Source of the DNA: Brevinema andersonii
GTDB taxonomy: Bacteria; Spirochaetota; DYKD01
Assembly: GCA_020722765.1 (NCBI GenBank)
Contig: DYKD01000011.1
Span: 1 to 60,649, forward strand
Length of the DNA: 60,649 nt
Direction of reading: 5' to 3'
The position numbers were made by a program, and so were the translations under genes. The notes beneath the pieces were generated by a model. It made no database searches. It was not told the origin of the DNA and worked only from the letters and a program-made list of their open reading frames with translations. Of the stretch, positions 4,588 to 15,230 are shown in pieces. Each line of letters begins with the position of its first letter. Within the stretch, counting starts at the first letter, position 1.

Positions 4588-5304
4588 TTATTTTGAACCT
4601 TTCTTAGCCATTGGGGGAGTGTATATCCTGTATTCGAATCCCAACGATATGGATATGTAGTGGTTCAAGTAAAGCTTTTCAAGAGTGCTCTCAGGAATCA
4701 TATAAGAATATTGTATTTTAAGATTGAGCTTAGCTTTGTCAGACAAGATAATTCTTGTCCCAATCCTTGCTGAAGCTCCGATGGTTGGAATCAAAAACCG
4801 GTTCTGGTTCTTATATGAGTCATAAAGCACATCAGGTATGACTCCTGCTTGCAGATCTGTTTTCCTGTTCAGGATTGGAAAGTAATAGTTCAAATCCAGA
4901 CCTATGTAGGGCAGGAAGAGTTTCAAAAATGACCTGTTCTCATCTTGCCAGTTGAAAGGGAATGTAAAATCAAAACCTGTAGCAAAAACAGGAGTGTGGT
5001 AGGTGTCATCAGTATTGACTCGGACACTCTTATTGCTTGATGTAAGCGGATCTTTCCAATTCAGATCAAATCCTGATTTACCTGTAAGACGGCTATACTG
5101 CAGTGTGATAATAAAGGCCGTATTATAGTATATTTCAGAATAGATTCCTGATATAGGTACAGAAAACCCTTTATAAAATGCCTTTATGTCCGCGCTATGG
5201 CCCATTATATAGCCTGGGTCTCCCCCCATTCTAATCATCCCCGATGCTTGCGTCTGTATTATTACCATGGCATTTAATAGAAGGAACAGCAGTGTTTTTT
5301 TCAT
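4588..5304 (-). CDS. Putative outer-membrane beta-barrel protein
   Basis: 238-aa exported protein with a Sec signal peptide (MKKTLLFLLLNAMVIIQTQAS). The rest is rich in alternating aromatic/hydrophobic strands (for example YNTAFIITLQYSRL, FLKLFLPYIGLDLNYYFPIL, AKLNLKIQYSYMIP, YISISLGFEYRI), suggesting about eight to ten beta strands; the last strand is followed by a short basic tail. I recognise no family. It starts 4 nt after the panC stop with AAGGTGAGG before the ATG, so it is likely cotranscribed with panBC, and it converges on folK. No functional link to pantothenate is evident. Confidence 0.7.
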   Translation of the reverse strand: MKKTLLFLLLNAMVIIQTQASGMIRMGGDPGYIMGHSADIKAFYKGFSVPISGIYSEIYYNTAFIITLQYSRLTGKSGFDLNWKDPLTSSNKSVRVNTDDTYHTPVFATGFDFTFPFNWQDENRSFLKLFLPYIGLDLNYYFPILNRKTDLQAGVIPDVLYDSYKNQNRFLIPTIGASARIGTRIILSDKAKLNLKIQYSYMIPESTLEKLYLNHYISISLGFEYRIYTPPMAKKGSK

Positions 5305-7060: not shown

Positions 7061-7089
7061 TTGACTATTTCATCTAAACATTATATATT
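7061..7089 (+). promoter_or_regulatory. Promoter of the 7.1-15 kb envelope operon
   Basis: TTGACT (7061-7066), 17-bp spacer, TATATT (7084-7089). Predicted +1 near 7096, leader about 35 nt with GGAG before the ATG. It is divergent from the panB promoter, with 21 bp between the two -35 boxes. Confidence 0.72.
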
Positions 7090-7130
7090 TAATGAAATAA
7101 TAGCTGTGGGTTTTCAATTGGAGTAAAATG

Positions 7131-7607
7131 ATGAAAACAGTTTTAAATCTGGGTCTCATAATAATAACGATGTTTTTCTTGGCTTCTTGTGGAAGTACAA
7201 CTGATAAGGGGCAGTCTATCAAATTGAATGGCAAATATTCCAAAGCTGATGTTGCTTTCTTTCAGGATTTCTATGCAGGCATGGTTCAAGCTGCTCAAAA
7301 TGAGGACATTGACAAGTCTCTCGCTTTTTATTCATCTTCTTTCAAAGGGGCTTCCCCAGGTTATCTGGATAAGCTCAGGGCGAATATCCAGAGCCTATAT
7401 GTCAACTATAAGAATATAACCTATGTTCCCAAGAATGTCTCACTTACTATAGAAGGTGATGATGCCATGGCATCTGATGAATATACCTATACTGCCCAGC
7501 CCGAAGCTGGCTCCAGATTCAAACCTCTTGATTATTCCGGAAAAGAACGAATTTATTGGAAGAAAGAAAATAATTCCTGGAGGATTGTAGAGTGGATTTA
7601 TTTCTGA
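7131..7607 (+). CDS. Lipoprotein with NTF2/SnoaL-like domain
   Basis: 158 aa from ATG 7131 (an adjacent ATG at 7128 sits only 4 nt from GGAG; 7131 has 7 nt). Lipoprotein signal MKTVLNLGLIIITMFFLASC with LASC lipobox. The mature part reads like a cystatin/NTF2-like cone fold: a helical DFYAGMVQAAQNEDIDKSLAFY segment (seen as FFQDFYAGMVQAAQNEDIDK), then beta strands ending GKERIYWKKENNSWRIVEWI, the usual W-x-I-x-x-W ending of SnoaL/DUF4440-like proteins. Such domains bind small ligands or are structural; function here is unknown. First gene of a five-gene envelope operon and overlaps the next gene. Confidence 0.75.
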   Translation: MKTVLNLGLIIITMFFLASCGSTTDKGQSIKLNGKYSKADVAFFQDFYAGMVQAAQNEDIDKSLAFYSSSFKGASPGYLDKLRANIQSLYVNYKNITYVPKNVSLTIEGDDAMASDEYTYTAQPEAGSRFKPLDYSGKERIYWKKENNSWRIVEWIYF

Positions 7608-10600
7608 CCTTAAAACATGGTTGGATGAGATTGAAACCTGCACTTCTACTGCTGTCTATTCTTCTTTTTTTTACAGCTCCCTTGTCTGCTGGTTTGAAAC
7701 AATATGATCTTAAAAATGTCAATATTCCTCTTCAAGATGCAATAAAGAAAAAAATATCGGATTATACGAATTCATGGTATCAATTGTCTGATGAACAGAA
7801 AAAAACACGTAACACAGCGGGGAAAATTGCCAATGATGCTCTCTCCTTATATAAGGCAGGGAAGTTTGCCGAATCCCTTTCAAAATATGAATTAGCCTAT
7901 CAGACATGGCCTGATCTTCTCGAAACACTTCCTGGATACGCAGCCACTCTGGTTGAACAGAATGATTTCACTAAAGCCATCACTTCACTGGAAAAATATC
8001 TGGACAAATATGATTCGTTGGACATAAATGCCAACAGGCTTTTAGGATTCGCTTATGTAAAAAACAAGGAGCCTGCAAAAGCATTGCCTTTCTATTTTAA
8101 GGCTGCAAAGCTGAATCCTAAAGACAAGACCATCTGGATTGAAATTGCCAATATCTATTATGAAGACGCTTCATACGATTATGCGTATGGATTGTACCAG
8201 AACGCTCTTAAACTGAATGCTACGGATCTTCGTATATATCAAGGTTTAGGAAACATCCTCCTTTTTTCAAAAGATTACGAAGAAGCAAGGAAAATTTTTG
8301 AACGTGGTCTGAAAATCGATTCTAAGAATATCAATCTAAAAGATGGTTATGACCAGGCTTCCGCTTTCATTCTTATCAGAAAGGCAGATGAGGCTCTGAA
8401 AAAAAACAAGAAGGCTGAAGCTCTCAAACTTCTTCTTCAAGCAGATTCTATAGTCTCAGGGTATTATCCACTTCTCGTCCAAATAGGAAAACTATATATT
8501 GATGACAAACAGTTCCAAAAAGCAAAACCATATTTTGAAGAAGCTTCTAGAATTCAAGCCCAGCAATATGTTCCATGGTATTTTTTAGGATTCATCAATC
8601 AGCTCGATGGTAACTTTACGGATGCTATGACTTTTTACAAGAATGCGCAGACAGTTGCTCCCAATAATCCGCAGCTTCTTACACGTATGGGCGAAATCCA
8701 GATAGAGTGGGGATTCCCGGAAAAAGCATTGGAATTCCTCAAGCGTAGTTATTACATAACTAACAGTTCTGTCCCAAATCTGACTGCCTTAGGTGTTGCT
8801 AACTATAAAATGGAAGATTACAAGTCATCTTTTACTTATTTCAGTAATGCCTCTGTTTTAGATCCAAAAAACCAGGTTGTTTGGAATTATCTTAACCGTG
8901 TGCGTTCCATGATTCTTGTTCAAGAAGGTAATAGTCATTTTGAACAGAAAGAGTACCCAGCAGCCCTGACCAGTTTCCAACAAGCTTTGAAATTTAATTC
9001 TTCTTTTACGGATGCGAGGATAAATCTCGCGAATACATATATCGAATTAGGACAGATAAAATCCGGATTGCCTATTCTTACATCCCTATATAAAGCGAAT
9101 ACGAATTCCTTGGTATTGATAGAGTCCTTGGCTGCGGCCTATGAAAGGAATAATCAACCTGAATTAGCTAAGCCTTTCCATGAAAAGATAGAAAGGTTGA
9201 AAGGTTCTGACCCGATGGCTTACTATAGGATTGGATTGAGCTTTGAAATCAATAACAGGCTGGATGATGCTATCAGCTCTTACCAGGAAGTACTTAAACT
9301 TGACAAAGGTTTCATAAAAGCTGAAAAGAGGTTGGCAACTGTCTATTATAAGCAGGGGATTGACGCTTACAATATAGGGAATATGGACTTGGCCTTGGAT
9401 TTATTAGGGAAATCCCTTGAACATGATCCTACTAATATTGATATAGTTGCAAGAATCGCATATATTAAGGCATTCAGGGTCATTAAAGAAGCGATTTCCC
9501 ATTTCAAAGCTGAAAACTATGGGAAAGCCCTTGAATCTTATCTGGCTGCTGAAAAAATTTCCGACAAGATACCAGAACTCTATTATGGTCTAGGCCAGAC
9601 CTATTATGAATTAGAAGAGCCATCAAAAGCTGTTGATAGCCTTTTAAAAGCTATTGATCTCAATCCTGAAATGTTGGATGCCTACAAATTGGCTGCCGAA
9701 ATCGAAAGAAGACGTGCCAATTATACTGAAGCTTCCAAGTATCTGAATCTTGCTATTGCTTTTTATCCTGTTGATCCTGAACTATATAATTCATTAGGTT
9801 ATGTTTTTTTTCAGAATAATGACCTTGAAAATGCCACTGCCATGTATAAAAAAGCGATCACATTGGATCCTTTGAAATCTGATTTTCATGTGAACCTAGG
9901 ACTTGTCTATTTCAAAGAAGGTCACTATGAATTGTCTGAAACATCCTTTCGTGCTGCTGATACTCTTAAACCTGGGCAAGATGATGTCTACTATAATATC
10001 GGGCTTACCTTGTATAAACAGAACAGGTTCCAAGAATCTGAACAGGCTTTCATCACTTCCATTACCATCAAGTCCGATATTCCTGACAAGTTTTTTTCTC
10101 TGGCAAGGACATTGTATTATATTGATGGCAGGATAAATGATTCCATACAGAATGCGGAAAAAGCCTTAAGCATGAGGGATGCTCCTCATTATTATTATGG
10201 GCTTGGAAAAATACTTGAAAAAAAAATGGAAACGGCAAGACAAGTGGATATTGAAAAATTCCGAGAAGCTGCCATCAATGCCTATAAGACTGTTGTATCA
10301 CGTTTGCCAGATACTCAGCTTGCTTTCTGGTCCGAAGAACGTCTTAAAATCCTTTTGCAAGAAGTAAGGCTGGTCAAATTTTATGAATCTCCAGAACCTT
10401 TGAATTCCTCTGTTCTTGTTTCTGGATCTGATGTCTTTGTTGCAGGAATTTATGGAGGTCTATTTGACTTTAATCCTGATATTGAAGATGAAAGTGGAAT
10501 GAAATGGGAATTCAGAAGTGATGCCCCAATAAATCACCCAATCATCATGCAGAATGAGAGCCTTTTTGTGGCAGATGATTCAACTCTCTACAGATTAGAT

Positions 10601-11329
10601 AAGACATCAGGTGAACTGTCAGGCTCATTCAGACCTGATGCTGAAATCTCTTCTCCATTGTACCTTTCCCCTGACAATACTATTTATTTTGGTACAGAAA
10701 AAGGGAAAATTTTGGGTGTAAAGGATAATTCCTTGGTTTTTGAAGCCTTAATCGGTACTACAATAAATTCAAAACCTGTCATTTCTGGGAAAAACATCAT
10801 CGTTTCAACCATCGATGGGACGGTTTATGCTGTTGATATGCAGGATTCTTCTATAAAATGGCGTTTTCTTGCTCCAGGACCAATAAAAGCTGATATACTT
10901 CTTTGGAATAACAATGTCATTGTAGGGGATCAAGAAGGGAATATCATTGCTCTTGATAACGCATCAGGTAAAATCAAATGGAAAATACGCACAGACGCAC
11001 CTGTCATTAAGGCAGGGATTGTTTCAAAAAACACTCTCTATTATCCATCTGGTAACACTCTTAATGCCATAGCAGAAAATGGACAATATTTATGGAAACA
11101 CATGTTCATTGAAAAGATAAGTACCTTGACACCACCAAATTCTAAAAACATGCTGTTTTTAGGTGGTGATGCAGGCGCATTATACGGTTATAATTTGGAT
11201 GAAAAACGTTTGCTATGGACATATAGGATAGATGCACCGGCTTCTGGAGATTCTGTGCTAATCGCTGATAATATGGGGCTTTTCCCCTCCGTGAATGGCA
11301 GAATCTATCAGTTGGAGTTTTTACAATGA
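7592..11329 (+). CDS. Large exported TPR protein with C-terminal PQQ-type beta-propeller
   Basis: 1245 aa. The start is GTG 7592 with GGAGG 8 nt upstream, inside the previous gene; ATG 7625 is an alternative that gives a compact signal peptide (MRLKPALLLLSILLFF then TAPLSA). Residues about 60-920 are a long array of tetratricopeptide repeats (many A-x-x-x-Y-x-x-A-L-x-L-x-P units such as ALPFYFKAAKLNPKDKTIW). Residues about 940-1245 form PQQ/BamB-like propeller blades (YGGLFDFNPD, GKILGVKDNSLVF, GTVYAVDMQDSSIKWRF, GNIIALDNASGKIKWKI). The combination suggests a periplasmic scaffold. I cannot name a family. It sits between an NTF2-like lipoprotein and a CsgG-like protein, with a PorV-like barrel downstream. 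Confidence 0.85.
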   Translation: MDLFLTLKHGWMRLKPALLLLSILLFFTAPLSAGLKQYDLKNVNIPLQDAIKKKISDYTNSWYQLSDEQKKTRNTAGKIANDALSLYKAGKFAESLSKYELAYQTWPDLLETLPGYAATLVEQNDFTKAITSLEKYLDKYDSLDINANRLLGFAYVKNKEPAKALPFYFKAAKLNPKDKTIWIEIANIYYEDASYDYAYGLYQNALKLNATDLRIYQGLGNILLFSKDYEEARKIFERGLKIDSKNINLKDGYDQASAFILIRKADEALKKNKKAEALKLLLQADSIVSGYYPLLVQIGKLYIDDKQFQKAKPYFEEASRIQAQQYVPWYFLGFINQLDGNFTDAMTFYKNAQTVAPNNPQLLTRMGEIQIEWGFPEKALEFLKRSYYITNSSVPNLTALGVANYKMEDYKSSFTYFSNASVLDPKNQVVWNYLNRVRSMILVQEGNSHFEQKEYPAALTSFQQALKFNSSFTDARINLANTYIELGQIKSGLPILTSLYKANTNSLVLIESLAAAYERNNQPELAKPFHEKIERLKGSDPMAYYRIGLSFEINNRLDDAISSYQEVLKLDKGFIKAEKRLATVYYKQGIDAYNIGNMDLALDLLGKSLEHDPTNIDIVARIAYIKAFRVIKEAISHFKAENYGKALESYLAAEKISDKIPELYYGLGQTYYELEEPSKAVDSLLKAIDLNPEMLDAYKLAAEIERRRANYTEASKYLNLAIAFYPVDPELYNSLGYVFFQNNDLENATAMYKKAITLDPLKSDFHVNLGLVYFKEGHYELSETSFRAADTLKPGQDDVYYNIGLTLYKQNRFQESEQAFITSITIKSDIPDKFFSLARTLYYIDGRINDSIQNAEKALSMRDAPHYYYGLGKILEKKMETARQVDIEKFREAAINAYKTVVSRLPDTQLAFWSEERLKILLQEVRLVKFYESPEPLNSSVLVSGSDVFVAGIYGGLFDFNPDIEDESGMKWEFRSDAPINHPIIMQNESLFVADDSTLYRLDKTSGELSGSFRPDAEISSPLYLSPDNTIYFGTEKGKILGVKDNSLVFEALIGTTINSKPVISGKNIIVSTIDGTVYAVDMQDSSIKWRFLAPGPIKADILLWNNNVIVGDQEGNIIALDNASGKIKWKIRTDAPVIKAGIVSKNTLYYPSGNTLNAIAENGQYLWKHMFIEKISTLTPPNSKNMLFLGGDAGALYGYNLDEKRLLWTYRIDAPASGDSVLIADNMGLFPSVNGRIYQLEFLQ

Positions 11330-11385
11330 GTAATTTTGGGGTTTTTCCCAAAAAAGATATATATTACCTTAAGGAGGAGCATTCC

Positions 11386-12123
11386 ATGGTCAATAAACTT
11401 ATTTCAGGAAGTGTCATTCTGGCTGTTATCCTATTTCTTGGTAACGGAATTTCCTTGGCGAAATCCAAGGAGATTTTTATTGACACAAAAATCAAACCAA
11501 CAACAAAATTTGAAGAAGCTAAGATTAAATCAGTAGCTATAATGAATTTTGATGCTAAAGACCTTCAGTTTGTAGGTGGAAGCAAGGTTGATTATGTCCG
11601 TCTAAGCAAGATGTTCGCTGATGATATAATCAAACGGATTTATACGCTTGGCAAGATTGAAGTTGCCCTAGGACAGTATGAGGATTTTGTCATTGAAACA
11701 GACATCATTGATAAGAAAAAAGGTGATTTGTATATCAATAGCTCATCATCAGAAAGAAGTGTACGATATAATTGTATACCTTTTAAGAAAATCAATGCTG
11801 TTCTTACAGGAACGCTAAACAAATATAGGGCTATTGGAGATGGTCGTGGGACATCTTTCATAAACATTACCCTGAAGCTTACTGATTCTTATGATGGGAC
11901 AGTCTATTGGATTACTGAAATGGAAGGCTTTTACAAGGATGTCATTCATACGATTGCGTACACATTGAGTTCTGGGAAATATGAGGAACCTGTAGAAATC
12001 ATTGATGTAGCAACAACAAAGGGCTCAAAAGCGACAAAGTCTCCTAAAAAAGAAGAGACTCCAAAGACTGAAGAGACTAAGCCTGAAGAACCAAAAGCGG
12101 ATTCCCAAACAGAAGGGAATTAA
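11386..12123 (+). CDS. Exported CsgG/TolB-N-fold-like protein with acidic-basic tail
   Basis: 245 aa from ATG 11386, chosen because AAGGAGGAG lies directly upstream; the frame is open to 11326. Signal peptide MVNKLISGSVILAVILFL then GNGISLA. The body has the pattern seen in CsgG/LpoB-like proteins: strand IKSVAIMNFDA, a helix with LSKMFADDIIKRIYTLGKI, INAVLTGTLNKYRAI, and a closing INITLKLTDSYDGTVYWITE. Such proteins typically sit in the periplasm or outer membrane and oligomerise or bind partners. The last 40 residues are low-complexity Lys/Glu/Pro/Thr. No lipobox Cys is visible, unlike CsgG. Family assignment is by pattern only. Confidence 0.6.
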   Translation: MVNKLISGSVILAVILFLGNGISLAKSKEIFIDTKIKPTTKFEEAKIKSVAIMNFDAKDLQFVGGSKVDYVRLSKMFADDIIKRIYTLGKIEVALGQYEDFVIETDIIDKKKGDLYINSSSSERSVRYNCIPFKKINAVLTGTLNKYRAIGDGRGTSFINITLKLTDSYDGTVYWITEMEGFYKDVIHTIAYTLSSGKYEEPVEIIDVATTKGSKATKSPKKEETPKTEETKPEEPKADSQTEGN

Positions 12124-12135
12124 TTGAGGTTATCT

Positions 12136-13386
12136 ATGGGAAACAATAAGAATCCCGGTTTATCCAGGAAAATATTTCTTCTCCTCTCATTTATCCTGGT
12201 TTTTAGTTCGTTTTTCCTGTCTTGTAATATATTCAGCCTATTCAGTAAGGTTTCCTTCTCATCGACTACCTCCTTGCTAAATGAGGCAGATATGTACTAC
12301 CAACGTGCTAATTTCAAGGCTGCTATGGAGAATTACCAAAAAGTAATGGAGAAGGATCCTGAAAACAGCAAGGCTCGTCTCGGATATGTCAATTCATTTG
12401 CAAGATTACGGTTTGTTGATTTCCTTTATATAGCACAGGAAGTGAGTAAGACAAATTTCAACCCCAAGAATCTGTTGAATGACCCTATTGTCAGAGACAA
12501 TGTTGTTGGAACATCCGGTGTTTTCCAAGTCTCAATAGATGTCCTCTCAAAAATTGTGAATGGTGAATGTGATGGTGCTGTGCCTGTTGATGATTTCAGT
12601 GTGAACATCCAATTAGCCTGTTCCCATCTGTTGCGTGGACTAATCTTAATAGGTGATTCTGACAATGATGGTGTCATTGCTTCCTCAAATGATCTCATGA
12701 TATTTGATGATGAGGGGATGCCAACTGTTAACATGGATGTGATCAATTTTTCTAACATAATGATGAGTATGAATACAGCTGCCACAATGTCTTCACAGAC
12801 GAATGGTCGGGGAGACCCTTTCGCCCTGCTTTTTTCTTTGACGACTGTTGAAGCGTTGACAAATCTTCAAACTGGATCTAATTCTTCAATGCGTTATTTT
12901 TTAGAAGGGTTACATGATTCTATAGAAGCAAGCCTATCTCTGTTCAAAGTAGCAATGACATCCATATCTTCATTTGACAATGCTGTAGCTGCTGTGAACA
13001 GGCTGGTTACAAGATATTCCTCAAGTCCGACAGTAGGGGAGATGGCTAGAAATATTTCAAAAGTCAATGATGACATACGTTATGTTTCTGACCAGATTGA
13101 AACCCCTTTCGCATCTACCTTGAACGATTTTCATAAGCAAATAACAGGTCAATTCGCATATAGTGGAAGCGTGCGTAATTTCAATCAGACTTCATTCGCA
13201 AGTCATATGGCTTCACCCGGGGGGATGATCGGTATTTTGGCAATTGGATCAAATGTATCTAAAGTCAACCTTAATGATGCAGAATCCATAGTATCCATGT
13301 TTTCAAATTTTATGACATCTGTTACAAACCCTGAGATGACAGCTATTGTTGACTACTGGATGAATTATTTCTCACAGACAAATTAA
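12136..13386 (+). CDS. Probable lipoprotein with one TPR unit
   Basis: 416 aa from ATG 12136, which has GAGG 6 nt upstream; the frame is open back to a TTG at 12124. N-terminus: basic segment, hydrophobic run and FFLSC, a loose lipobox (Phe at -3) of the kind accepted in some non-proteobacterial phyla. Just after it is one TPR (NEADMYYQRANFKAAMENYQ then KVMEKDPENSKARLGYV). The remainder (residues about 90-416) is Ser/Asn/Met-rich, predicted helical, unrecognised. Fourth gene of the operon, between the CsgG-like protein and the barrel. Confidence 0.65.
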   Translation: MGNNKNPGLSRKIFLLLSFILVFSSFFLSCNIFSLFSKVSFSSTTSLLNEADMYYQRANFKAAMENYQKVMEKDPENSKARLGYVNSFARLRFVDFLYIAQEVSKTNFNPKNLLNDPIVRDNVVGTSGVFQVSIDVLSKIVNGECDGAVPVDDFSVNIQLACSHLLRGLILIGDSDNDGVIASSNDLMIFDDEGMPTVNMDVINFSNIMMSMNTAATMSSQTNGRGDPFALLFSLTTVEALTNLQTGSNSSMRYFLEGLHDSIEASLSLFKVAMTSISSFDNAVAAVNRLVTRYSSSPTVGEMARNISKVNDDIRYVSDQIETPFASTLNDFHKQITGQFAYSGSVRNFNQTSFASHMASPGGMIGILAIGSNVSKVNLNDAESIVSMFSNFMTSVTNPEMTAIVDYWMNYFSQTN

Positions 13387-13398
13387 CTAGGATAATCG

Positions 13399-14964
13399 AT
13401 GATAAAAAACATCATTTTCCACATTCTTTCTTTTTTGTTGCTGGTTACAGCCTGTTTGTCTGCAGACGTGCAACCACCACTCAAATTCAATGATTCCCGT
13501 GTTATGGGTCTTGGCAATGCTTTTACTGCTGTTGCTGATGATAAGAACCTTCTATTCTATAATCCTGCAGGATTGGCAAATTACGGTAGAAAAAAGACTT
13601 CCCTGCACCAGGCATTGTTTAATCCTACAGAATGGAAACCAAGATACAGGAATCTAGGTGAGTTGAATATTTTTTCATCTGAAATCCGGGTCTATAACAA
13701 CATCACCCAGGATTATGTGGACGCTGTCCAGACATTGTTTGATCTTGGTATTGTTCCTGTAAGTCCAGCTACGTATAACTCAGGTATTTCAAATTATAAC
13801 AACATATACCATTTCAGTCCTTTTCTCACTGGTTTGTTAGGTTTGCCAGAACTCAAATTCTTGGACAGTAACGCTACAAACCTAGGGTGGGGGAATTTGA
13901 CCTATTCCCAATTGTCCAATTTTAATGATGCTTTCAACAAATTGACCCAGTCAGCAGTCAGTTTTTCTTTAGATACGACAATCATGTCTTACATAAACCG
14001 ATTCTTCGGTTTTGGTTTTTTTACAACAACTGATATGGCCATGATTTTTGGGCTTCAAGGAATTTTACCGGATATCAGGACAAGGATACACCAGGATGTT
14101 ATATGGCTTGGTTCTTTCGGCATGAACTGGCCAAGTATGAAGCGGTTGAGTGTGGGGGTGACTTATAAGCACTTCCATAGACTTTATATCAATATGGATA
14201 ATATCAATGATTACATTGACTTTTCATTGTTTATGGAAGAGAACTCCTCCATTTTTTCAGATATTTTAAAAGAAGCCTCAGCGCATCCTCAAAGCAGTGC
14301 TTGGTCGGGCTTGGAGTTTGACAAAGTTTTGCCAGATTCTGTATTCCTTGGAACTGGTAATGGCTTTGATCTGGGTGCTATGTATAAATTGAAACATAAC
14401 CTCAATGTAGGTCTCCAGATTAGTGATGTCTATACAAGAATCAGGATGTGGGATGGAAAACAGTCTGCCTTTATTCCCATAAACGCCAGTGCAGGTATTG
14501 CATGGAAGCCTGATATAAGTCTTTGGGGGCTTTTTGAAGAGCCTCTTTTGGCAATGGATATCGATGACATGTTTTTTCAGCAGAATAGCAATTTTTGGAT
14601 GAAGCTTCATGCTGGAGCTGAATTCAAGATGTTATTCAAAATTATCAATCTCAGAATGGGTATCAACCAGGGTTACATCACTTATAGTGGTGGTATTGAT
14701 TTGTCCTTATATGTCTTAAGTAAGATTCCTGTATTAAAATGGTTTAGGCCTGATTCTGTCTATTTCCCTCAGTTCAATCCCAATAAGAAGGATTTTCTTG
14801 AAAGGAATCCATGCTGTTGTATGATGACAGGATTGCTTGCGGTTGTTACTTATGCACATTTGAAGGTAGATTTCCTGAGTTATACACGTGAATTAGGTTC
14901 CTATGCGGGTGCTATCCCTGACAGGCAACTTTCCATCAGAGCTAGCCTCTCATATTCATATTAG
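13399..14964 (+). CDS. PorV/UPF0164-like outer-membrane beta-barrel protein
   Basis: 521 aa with signal peptide MIKNIIFHILSFLLLVTACLSA. The mature N-terminus DSRVMGLGNAFTAVADDKN followed by LLFYNPAGLA is the hallmark of the UPF0164/PorV/FadL-like barrels, where this segment plugs or leads into a barrel of about 14 strands. Later strands (for example NLNVGLQISDVYTRIRMWDG, INLRMGINQGYITYSGGIDL) and a final RASLSYSY with a terminal aromatic fit outer-membrane insertion. GGATAATCG precedes the ATG. Last gene of the operon; probably its outer-membrane component. Cargo or ligand is unknown. Confidence 0.78.
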   Translation: MIKNIIFHILSFLLLVTACLSADVQPPLKFNDSRVMGLGNAFTAVADDKNLLFYNPAGLANYGRKKTSLHQALFNPTEWKPRYRNLGELNIFSSEIRVYNNITQDYVDAVQTLFDLGIVPVSPATYNSGISNYNNIYHFSPFLTGLLGLPELKFLDSNATNLGWGNLTYSQLSNFNDAFNKLTQSAVSFSLDTTIMSYINRFFGFGFFTTTDMAMIFGLQGILPDIRTRIHQDVIWLGSFGMNWPSMKRLSVGVTYKHFHRLYINMDNINDYIDFSLFMEENSSIFSDILKEASAHPQSSAWSGLEFDKVLPDSVFLGTGNGFDLGAMYKLKHNLNVGLQISDVYTRIRMWDGKQSAFIPINASAGIAWKPDISLWGLFEEPLLAMDIDDMFFQQNSNFWMKLHAGAEFKMLFKIINLRMGINQGYITYSGGIDLSLYVLSKIPVLKWFRPDSVYFPQFNPNKKDFLERNPCCCMMTGLLAVVTYAHLKVDFLSYTRELGSYAGAIPDRQLSIRASLSYSY

Positions 14965-15098: not shown

Positions 15099-15230
15099 AT
15101 GAAATATGTCACACCAGAAACACTCAAATCCGAAATCATGAAGAATTTCAAGTCATTCCTTTCCCAAAAAACAGAGACAGAGCCTGCAAACCTCAGGATC
15201 CGAGACATAATGAAATCACTCGATGAGTAA
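15099..15230 (+). CDS. Small 43-aa protein
   Basis: ATG 15099 with AGGAG 6-7 nt upstream. The protein is soluble, helical and charged: MKYVTPETLKSEIMKNFKSF, a Thr/Glu-rich hinge, then NLRIRDIMKSLDE. No family recognised. It ends 11 nt before the methyltransferase start and may be cotranslated with it; the methyltransferase lacks its own ribosome binding site, consistent with coupling. A good ribosome binding site and a codon-like composition support it as real, but its shortness limits certainty. Confidence 0.55.
   Translation: MKYVTPETLKSEIMKNFKSFLSQKTETEPANLRIRDIMKSLDE

Follow-up and report, generated by a model that had tools for sequence, protein, structure and literature searches.

What does a compact five-gene envelope operon do when the set corresponds to no described system? 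The question is raised by genes g1 to g5 of Brevinema andersonii, which lie in the window, the whole 60,649-nucleotide stretch analysed here (assembly GCA_020722765.1, contig DYKD01000011.1, positions 1 to 60,649). The first-pass annotation took the operon for an outer-membrane assembly or export apparatus matching none known, and both statements fit the evidence. The reading tentatively favoured here, with slightly less than an even chance of being correct, is that the operon is the periplasmic and outer-membrane module of an SprA/PorV-type protein exporter in deep-branching Spirochaetota. Such an exporter would resemble the type IX secretion system (T9SS). The same genome (G000) encodes an SprA-like protein and many genes with a C-terminal sorting domain (CTD) paired with PorV-family barrels. 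The earlier statement that no other parts of the T9SS were present was therefore wrong.

Organization and Conservation of the Operon

The five open reading frames (ORFs) are co-directional and tightly packed, with gaps of -16, -4, 0, and +12 bp (Table 1). Their order and orientation recur in G035, G024, and G011, which add two other families and whose proteins are 24-48% identical to those of the window. In G011 g5 is on a broken contig. The conserved order and orientation show that the cluster is not a chance arrangement. Identity to the orthologues in these three genomes was 35-41% for g1, 28-29% for full-length g2, and 34-48% for g3.

Across the 393 Spirochaetota genomes surveyed the operon splits into modules. 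Profile search placed g4 and g5 side by side in 25 genomes from about 12 families, with g4 directly upstream of g5 wherever both were readable. Genes g3, g4, and g5 occur together in families f1, f12, f22, and f43, and divergently in f33. Genes g2 and g3 occur together in f1, f12, f22, f26, and f11. One pattern-based scan of the GTDB collection found Spirochaetota loci only, with a limited sensitivity that missed family f43 too, so absence from other phyla is not established. The earlier suggestion to check whether the five genes stay together across phyla thus gave a positive answer within Spirochaetota families and a negative one across phyla in this single low-sensitivity scan.

The g5 Barrel and Its CTD-Linked Relatives

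The g5 product matched the NCBIfam model PorV_fam (E 3e-12, 46.6 bits, cut-off 90) and, more weakly, the T9SS_OM_PorV equivalog (E 0.0038). It is not PorV itself. The homology is at the superfamily level only and, judged from sequence, marks g5 as a divergent member of the PorV/PorQ barrel superfamily. A profile trained without g5, on CTD-linked PorV-type barrels only, found g5 (E 7e-13) and g5 homologues. The barrel had been described as PorV/UPF0164-like. The PorV likeness stood on these two results, while UPF0164 (Pfam PF03687) scored E 0.13 and 11.5 bits against a cut-off of 21.4, and that assignment was rejected. With subscription papers and preprints set aside, no report joining PorV with UPF0164 was found in the literature.

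The T9SS sorting domain TIGR04183 had 20 matches in the genome of the window, all of those listed being over the cut-off. Nine other carrier genomes had 2 to 51 matches each, and two of 14 control genomes were positive. In all twelve CTD genes examined in the genome of the window, 0-12 residues separate the end of the domain from the stop codon. The next gene is in every case on the same strand and of barrel type (289-401 aa), most with an NPx plug motif. Cargo is paired with individual PorV-type barrels, as type B cargo is with PorP/SprF. PorV_fam matched every one of the ten CTD-linked barrels scanned, of which six belong to this genome, and eight of the ten scored over its cut-off. The cargo domains included GH2-like, fn3, F5/8 type C, and DUF4832, and there were glycosidase- and lectin-like domains among them. 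In Pfam the CTD scored marginally, and FlgD_ig matched as well. Given this overlap of the sorting domain with FlgD Ig domains in profile space, the C-terminal position and the PorV-family adjacency outweigh the CTD score. When profiles made from the CTD and barrel sequences were run against 749 ORFs, they recovered an independent CTD/PorV pair in G162, whose 368-kb contig carries g3-g4-g5 about 5.6 kb away; beyond that pair, next to no CTD was retrieved. At the genome level, contaminating DNA was set aside as the origin of the CTD and SprA genes, because the combination also occurs in G162, an assembly of 20 contigs, and in G025, which is a single contig. Some PorV-family shuttles are extended C-terminally, with TPR (tetratricopeptide repeat) in one (L230) and charged tails in others (L239, L240, L241). 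These extensions recall the C-terminal TPR domain of Treponema pallidum FadL-like proteins.

The main rival is a FadL-type system for uptake or release of hydrophobic molecules. Its passage would be the g5 hatch, g4 would receive the molecules, and g2, g3, and g1 would form a periplasmic bridge or docking complex. The NPA plug (hatch) motif of FadL-like proteins is kept in g5 and in most of its homologues, and g5 has a weak similarity to Toluene_X (E 0.036). The FadL-like proteins of T. pallidum also have an NPA motif, and a C-terminal TPR is present in three of the five, paralleled here by the TPR lipoprotein beside the barrel (PMC8407342). These FadL-like/UPF0164 proteins (TP0548, TP0856, TP0858, TP0859, TP0865) share with g5 the barrel superfamily, the plug motif, and the TPR association. 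They differ in that the UPF0164 profile misses g5 and that their TPR is an extension of the barrel rather than a separate lipoprotein. PorV_fam is nevertheless a far better match for g5 than FadL/TodX or UPF0164, and close relatives of g5 encoded by this genome are linked to CTD genes. Neither lipid or hydrocarbon genes nor a permease of the inner membrane were seen in the operon. A FadL-type role is therefore considered unlikely.

The SprA-Like Protein and Its Co-Occurrence With g4-g5

The SprA-like protein of the genome of the window matched TIGR04189 with E 6e-31 and 106 bits, against an equivalog cut-off of 200. It had no Pfam match, and the SprA-like profile retrieved no SprA chain in the PDB. 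Of ten carriers searched with the family model of SprA, which is the T9SS translocon, eight had matching ORFs of 1900-2300 aa, with whole-protein scores (E 3e-24 to 2e-32) under the equivalog cut-off. An alignment of seven carrier proteins used as a profile detected SprA-like proteins in 100 of the 393 genomes. Proteins of this kind, about 1500-2300 aa long, were thus present in a quarter of the sampled Spirochaetota, many without g4-g5.

The g4-g5 pair and the SprA-like gene are co-inherited. An SprA-like protein was present in 23 of the 25 g4-g5 genomes, and only two of the 293 genomes without one had g4-g5. A simple Fisher test at the genus level gave p 6e-6, a value which overstates the case. 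A distance of 12-14 kb separates the SprA-like gene from g3-g4-g5 in genus g50; other genomes show no linkage, and there the SprA-like gene stands alone. The SprA neighborhoods of twelve further genomes contained no conserved partner operon and no adjacent g4-g5.

Predicted Fold of g3

No sequence family was matched by g3. The core of its AlphaFold2 model had a predicted local distance difference test (pLDDT) score of mostly 70-89 with dips near 50, which is moderate confidence. Foldseek ranked the PelC dodecamer first (E 3e-6, target-normalised template modelling score 0.63). PelC and PelBC entries together ranged from E 3e-6 to 2e-5, and CsgG and TolB ranked lower. The model thus places g3 in the predicted alpha/beta fold of ring-forming outer-membrane lipoproteins (PelC/CsgG-type). 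This agrees with its first description as CsgG/TolB-fold-like, with PelC as the best match. Since PelC and CsgG are ring-forming proteins of the outer membrane, g3 may by analogy reasonably be expected to form a ring too. Sequence search of the PDB gave nothing useful for the g3 or g5 profiles, and a viral-contig search with g3 gave no match. Two families of g3 paralogues are present in the genome of the window. One lies within a metK-DUF4398-LysM cluster. The other is a longer protein that comes after an FlgT_N-like gene in relatives (L031, L032), the L031 copy having a weak PagL-like match in its C-terminal part.

The fold raises the question of an exporter of exopolysaccharide or another polymer like PelB-PelC, with g3 as the ring, g2 as the TPR scaffold, and g5 as the outer-membrane pore. 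Besides the top-ranked Foldseek matches, PelB combines an extended TPR array with an outer-membrane barrel, and a family-2 glycosyltransferase is found near g2-g3 in G043. The likeness to PelB-PelC and to the CsgG curli pore lies in the predicted core fold of g3 and in its adjoining a TPR-array protein; it does not extend to detectable sequence similarity, and no curli genes were seen in the operon. PelG (PF16933) was absent from all ten carriers tested, and membership of the Pel system was rejected on this ground. The operon of the window is without a synthase or glycosyltransferase, and g5 is PorV/FadL-like and not a PelB/BcsC-type barrel. A Pel-type function is very improbable.

The g1, g2, and g4 Proteins

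The g1 protein has a lipobox cysteine (LASC) and a weak match to DUF4440/NTF2-like proteins (E 5.5e-4, below the cut-off). Pfam identified TPR (E 7e-64) and a PQQ_2 propeller (E 1e-22) in g2. The g4 protein has a lipobox cysteine (FLSC) and one or two TPR units at residues 46-91 by Pfam, followed by a helical body outside known families. The first-pass descriptions of an NTF2-like lipoprotein, a TPR array fused to a PQQ-type propeller, and a TPR lipoprotein agree with these features, that of g1 weakly. No lipobox was found in g2 or g3 of the window; some homologues of these two do carry one. The loop of g4 (D178, D182, D190) is invariant across eight aligned sequences, and that it might bind calcium is only a guess. 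The AlphaFold2 model of g4 had a mean pLDDT of 44.5, too poor for a structure search. In genus g50 two TPR proteins without a propeller adjoin g3-g4-g5 near the SprA-like gene and are possible counterparts of g2.

The propeller of g2 had been said to recall BamB. This likeness proved unspecific: g2 scored 75.6 bits against the BamB equivalog TIGR03300 (cut-off 285), nine stretches of the genome of the window match that model, and none reaches the cut-off. BamB identity was rejected, the propeller scores being generic. The operon could also encode an accessory complex for assembling outer-membrane proteins or surface lipoproteins, similar to the extensions of the β-barrel assembly machinery (BAM) in Bacteroidota, where the FadL-fold BamG holds the lipoprotein BamH (PMC12611786). 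The parts are similar in kind, with a BamB-like propeller, a TPR lipoprotein, and a FadL-fold barrel beside a lipoprotein. However, the five proteins were found to have neither a BamA-type nor a POTRA domain, the operon has no BamA partner gene, and no BamG-like sequence match was found. BAM is essential, yet most Spirochaetota lack the operon. This alternative is improbable.

The Proposed SprA/PorV-Type Exporter

In the proposed exporter g5 would be a PorV-type barrel docking beside the SprA-like translocon encoded elsewhere in the genome, and g4 its dedicated lipoprotein partner at the periplasmic face. Like PelC and CsgG, the g3 proteins would assemble into a ring or collar at the outer membrane's inner leaflet. 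The long TPR/propeller protein g2 would be a scaffold holding the parts and the approaching cargo, a role comparable to that of SprE/PorW, and g1 would be a small accessory lipoprotein. We infer that these proteins physically contact SprA, that a ring is formed, and what each part does. In the extended translocon of Flavobacterium johnsoniae PorV contacts SprA, and SprE, a protein of 13 TPRs, is part of the periplasmic structure (PMC10994853). This structure makes the arrangement proposed for g5 and g2 physically reasonable.

Like the Bacteroidota T9SS, the genome of the window has an SprA-like protein, CTD-type cargo, and PorV/PorQ-family barrels, the cargo and its shuttle barrels being found together. 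The operon adds a PorV-type barrel, a TPR lipoprotein, and a long TPR scaffold, SprE being the TPR scaffold of the extended translocon. The differences are that the phylum is Spirochaetota, that the SprA-like protein and g5 score under the curated cut-offs, and that further components are missing, as set out below. Membership of the T9SS is not claimed, as GldL was not found and g5 is not PorV by the equivalog model. It can be said that the system works like an SprA/PorV exporter in its recognisable parts.

Several points weigh against this exporter. In ten carriers nothing exceeded the cut-off for the motor protein GldL (TIGR03513), and the single weak match was in G146. The exporter would therefore have to draw on a different energy source or on a motor of strongly diverged sequence, and it is here that the model is weakest. 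Apart from hits to generic TPR and propeller models, g1 to g4 match no known T9SS component. The PorV_fam score of g5 is under the cut-off, some g5 homologues have no PorV match at all, and a FadL-type transporter also fits g5. In favor of the link, the 22 best SprA-like scores are exactly those of g4-g5 carriers, but the alignment was seeded from such carriers and their high ranking is in part a product of its construction. Two changes are enough to account for the g4-g5 label on the SprA tree, so the association is largely one inherited pattern with few independent events. No g4-g5 was detectable in 77 of the 100 SprA-positive genomes. Conversely, G007 and G032, both incomplete, have g4-g5 and no detected SprA.

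The T9SS has been described as restricted to Bacteroidetes (PMC4793230), with BLAST hints of it in Chlorobi, Fibrobacteres, and Ignavibacteriae (PMC5837995). No T9SS in Spirochaetota was found in titles and abstracts, subscription papers and preprints aside, and novelty is thus unproven. If Spirochaetota combine an SprA-like protein with CTD cargo and PorV-type barrels, one more phylum would be added to the range of a protein-secretion system. For the PorV/UPF0164/FadL-like barrels of spirochaetes this would suggest a testable function distinct from lipid uptake. The scaffold, ring, lipoprotein, and barrel of the operon are candidates to stand in for the absent motor and ring, so that experiments could directly address how export of this kind is organized or powered. 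A bolder proposal, unlikely as it stands, is a T9SS-like exporter of deep Spirochaetota without a GldL motor. In it the PelC-type ring of g3 and the g2 scaffold would replace the PorK-PorN ring, the PorL-PorM motor, and SprE, and cargo would exit by way of the SprA-like barrel, together with PorV-type shuttles. These shuttles would then have the treponemal FadL-like vaccine candidates among their relatives.

Start Sites, Promoter, and Neighboring Genes

From the reading frame and the upstream sequence, g2 probably starts at ATG 7625 (1234 aa) rather than at the GTG at 7592. The start of g3 is probably ATG 11386 rather than 11326, with AAGGAGGAG just upstream of 11386. The first-pass claim that one promoter drives the operon is not established. 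The site listed in Table 1 is a guess, as promoter-type sites numbered 48 against 37.9 ± 6.8 in shuffles, which is near chance.

Table 1. Coordinates of the operon and of related features (window positions unless a contig or locus is named; G000 is the genome of the window).
Feature	Position	Strand	Description
Candidate sigma-70-type promoter	7061..7089	+	TTGACT-17-TATATT, 10/12 consensus match
g1	7128..7607	+	159 aa, NTF2-like (DUF4440-like) lipoprotein
g2	7592..11329	+	1245 aa from GTG; TPR array and C-terminal PQQ/BamB-type propeller
g3	11326..12123	+	265 aa, exported, predicted PelC/CsgG-fold protein
g4	12124..13386	+	420 aa lipoprotein; 1-2 TPR units, helical body, conserved D-x-D/N-x-D loop
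g5	13399..14964	+	521 aa PorV/FadL-superfamily outer-membrane barrel, NPAG plug motif
SprA-like gene	G000 C333:16-5928 (locus L166)	-	1971 aa
Twelve CTD genes and following barrel genes	G000 C71, C210, C51, C34, C75, C108, C94, C85, C366, C323, C89 (loci L223-L233)		
Shuttle with C-terminal TPR	L230:9397-10593		
g3 paralogue families	L030:6978-10205 (G000 C99), L033:9644-10819 (G000 C216)		
TPR proteins of genus g50	L128:12671-15524, L129:12722-15976, L137:5563-8523		
U1/U2	L022:14078-15523, L023:6347-7912, L024:7888-9474	-	conserved in three syntenic genomes
Barrel upstream of g1 in G035	L022:17534-18481	-	PorV-family shuttle-type
Small ORF	15099-15230	+	43 aa, CAGGAG upstream
Small outer-membrane protein	4588-5304	-	weakly TDE1717-family-like

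Two small outer-membrane-protein-like genes, U1 and U2, lie directly upstream of g1 in G035, G011, and G024 and are absent beside the operon of the window. The shuttle-type barrel of G035 is about 3.5 kb upstream of g1. In the window a small ORF is located between g5 and a methyltransferase gene, and the gene for a small outer-membrane protein lies downstream of panC.

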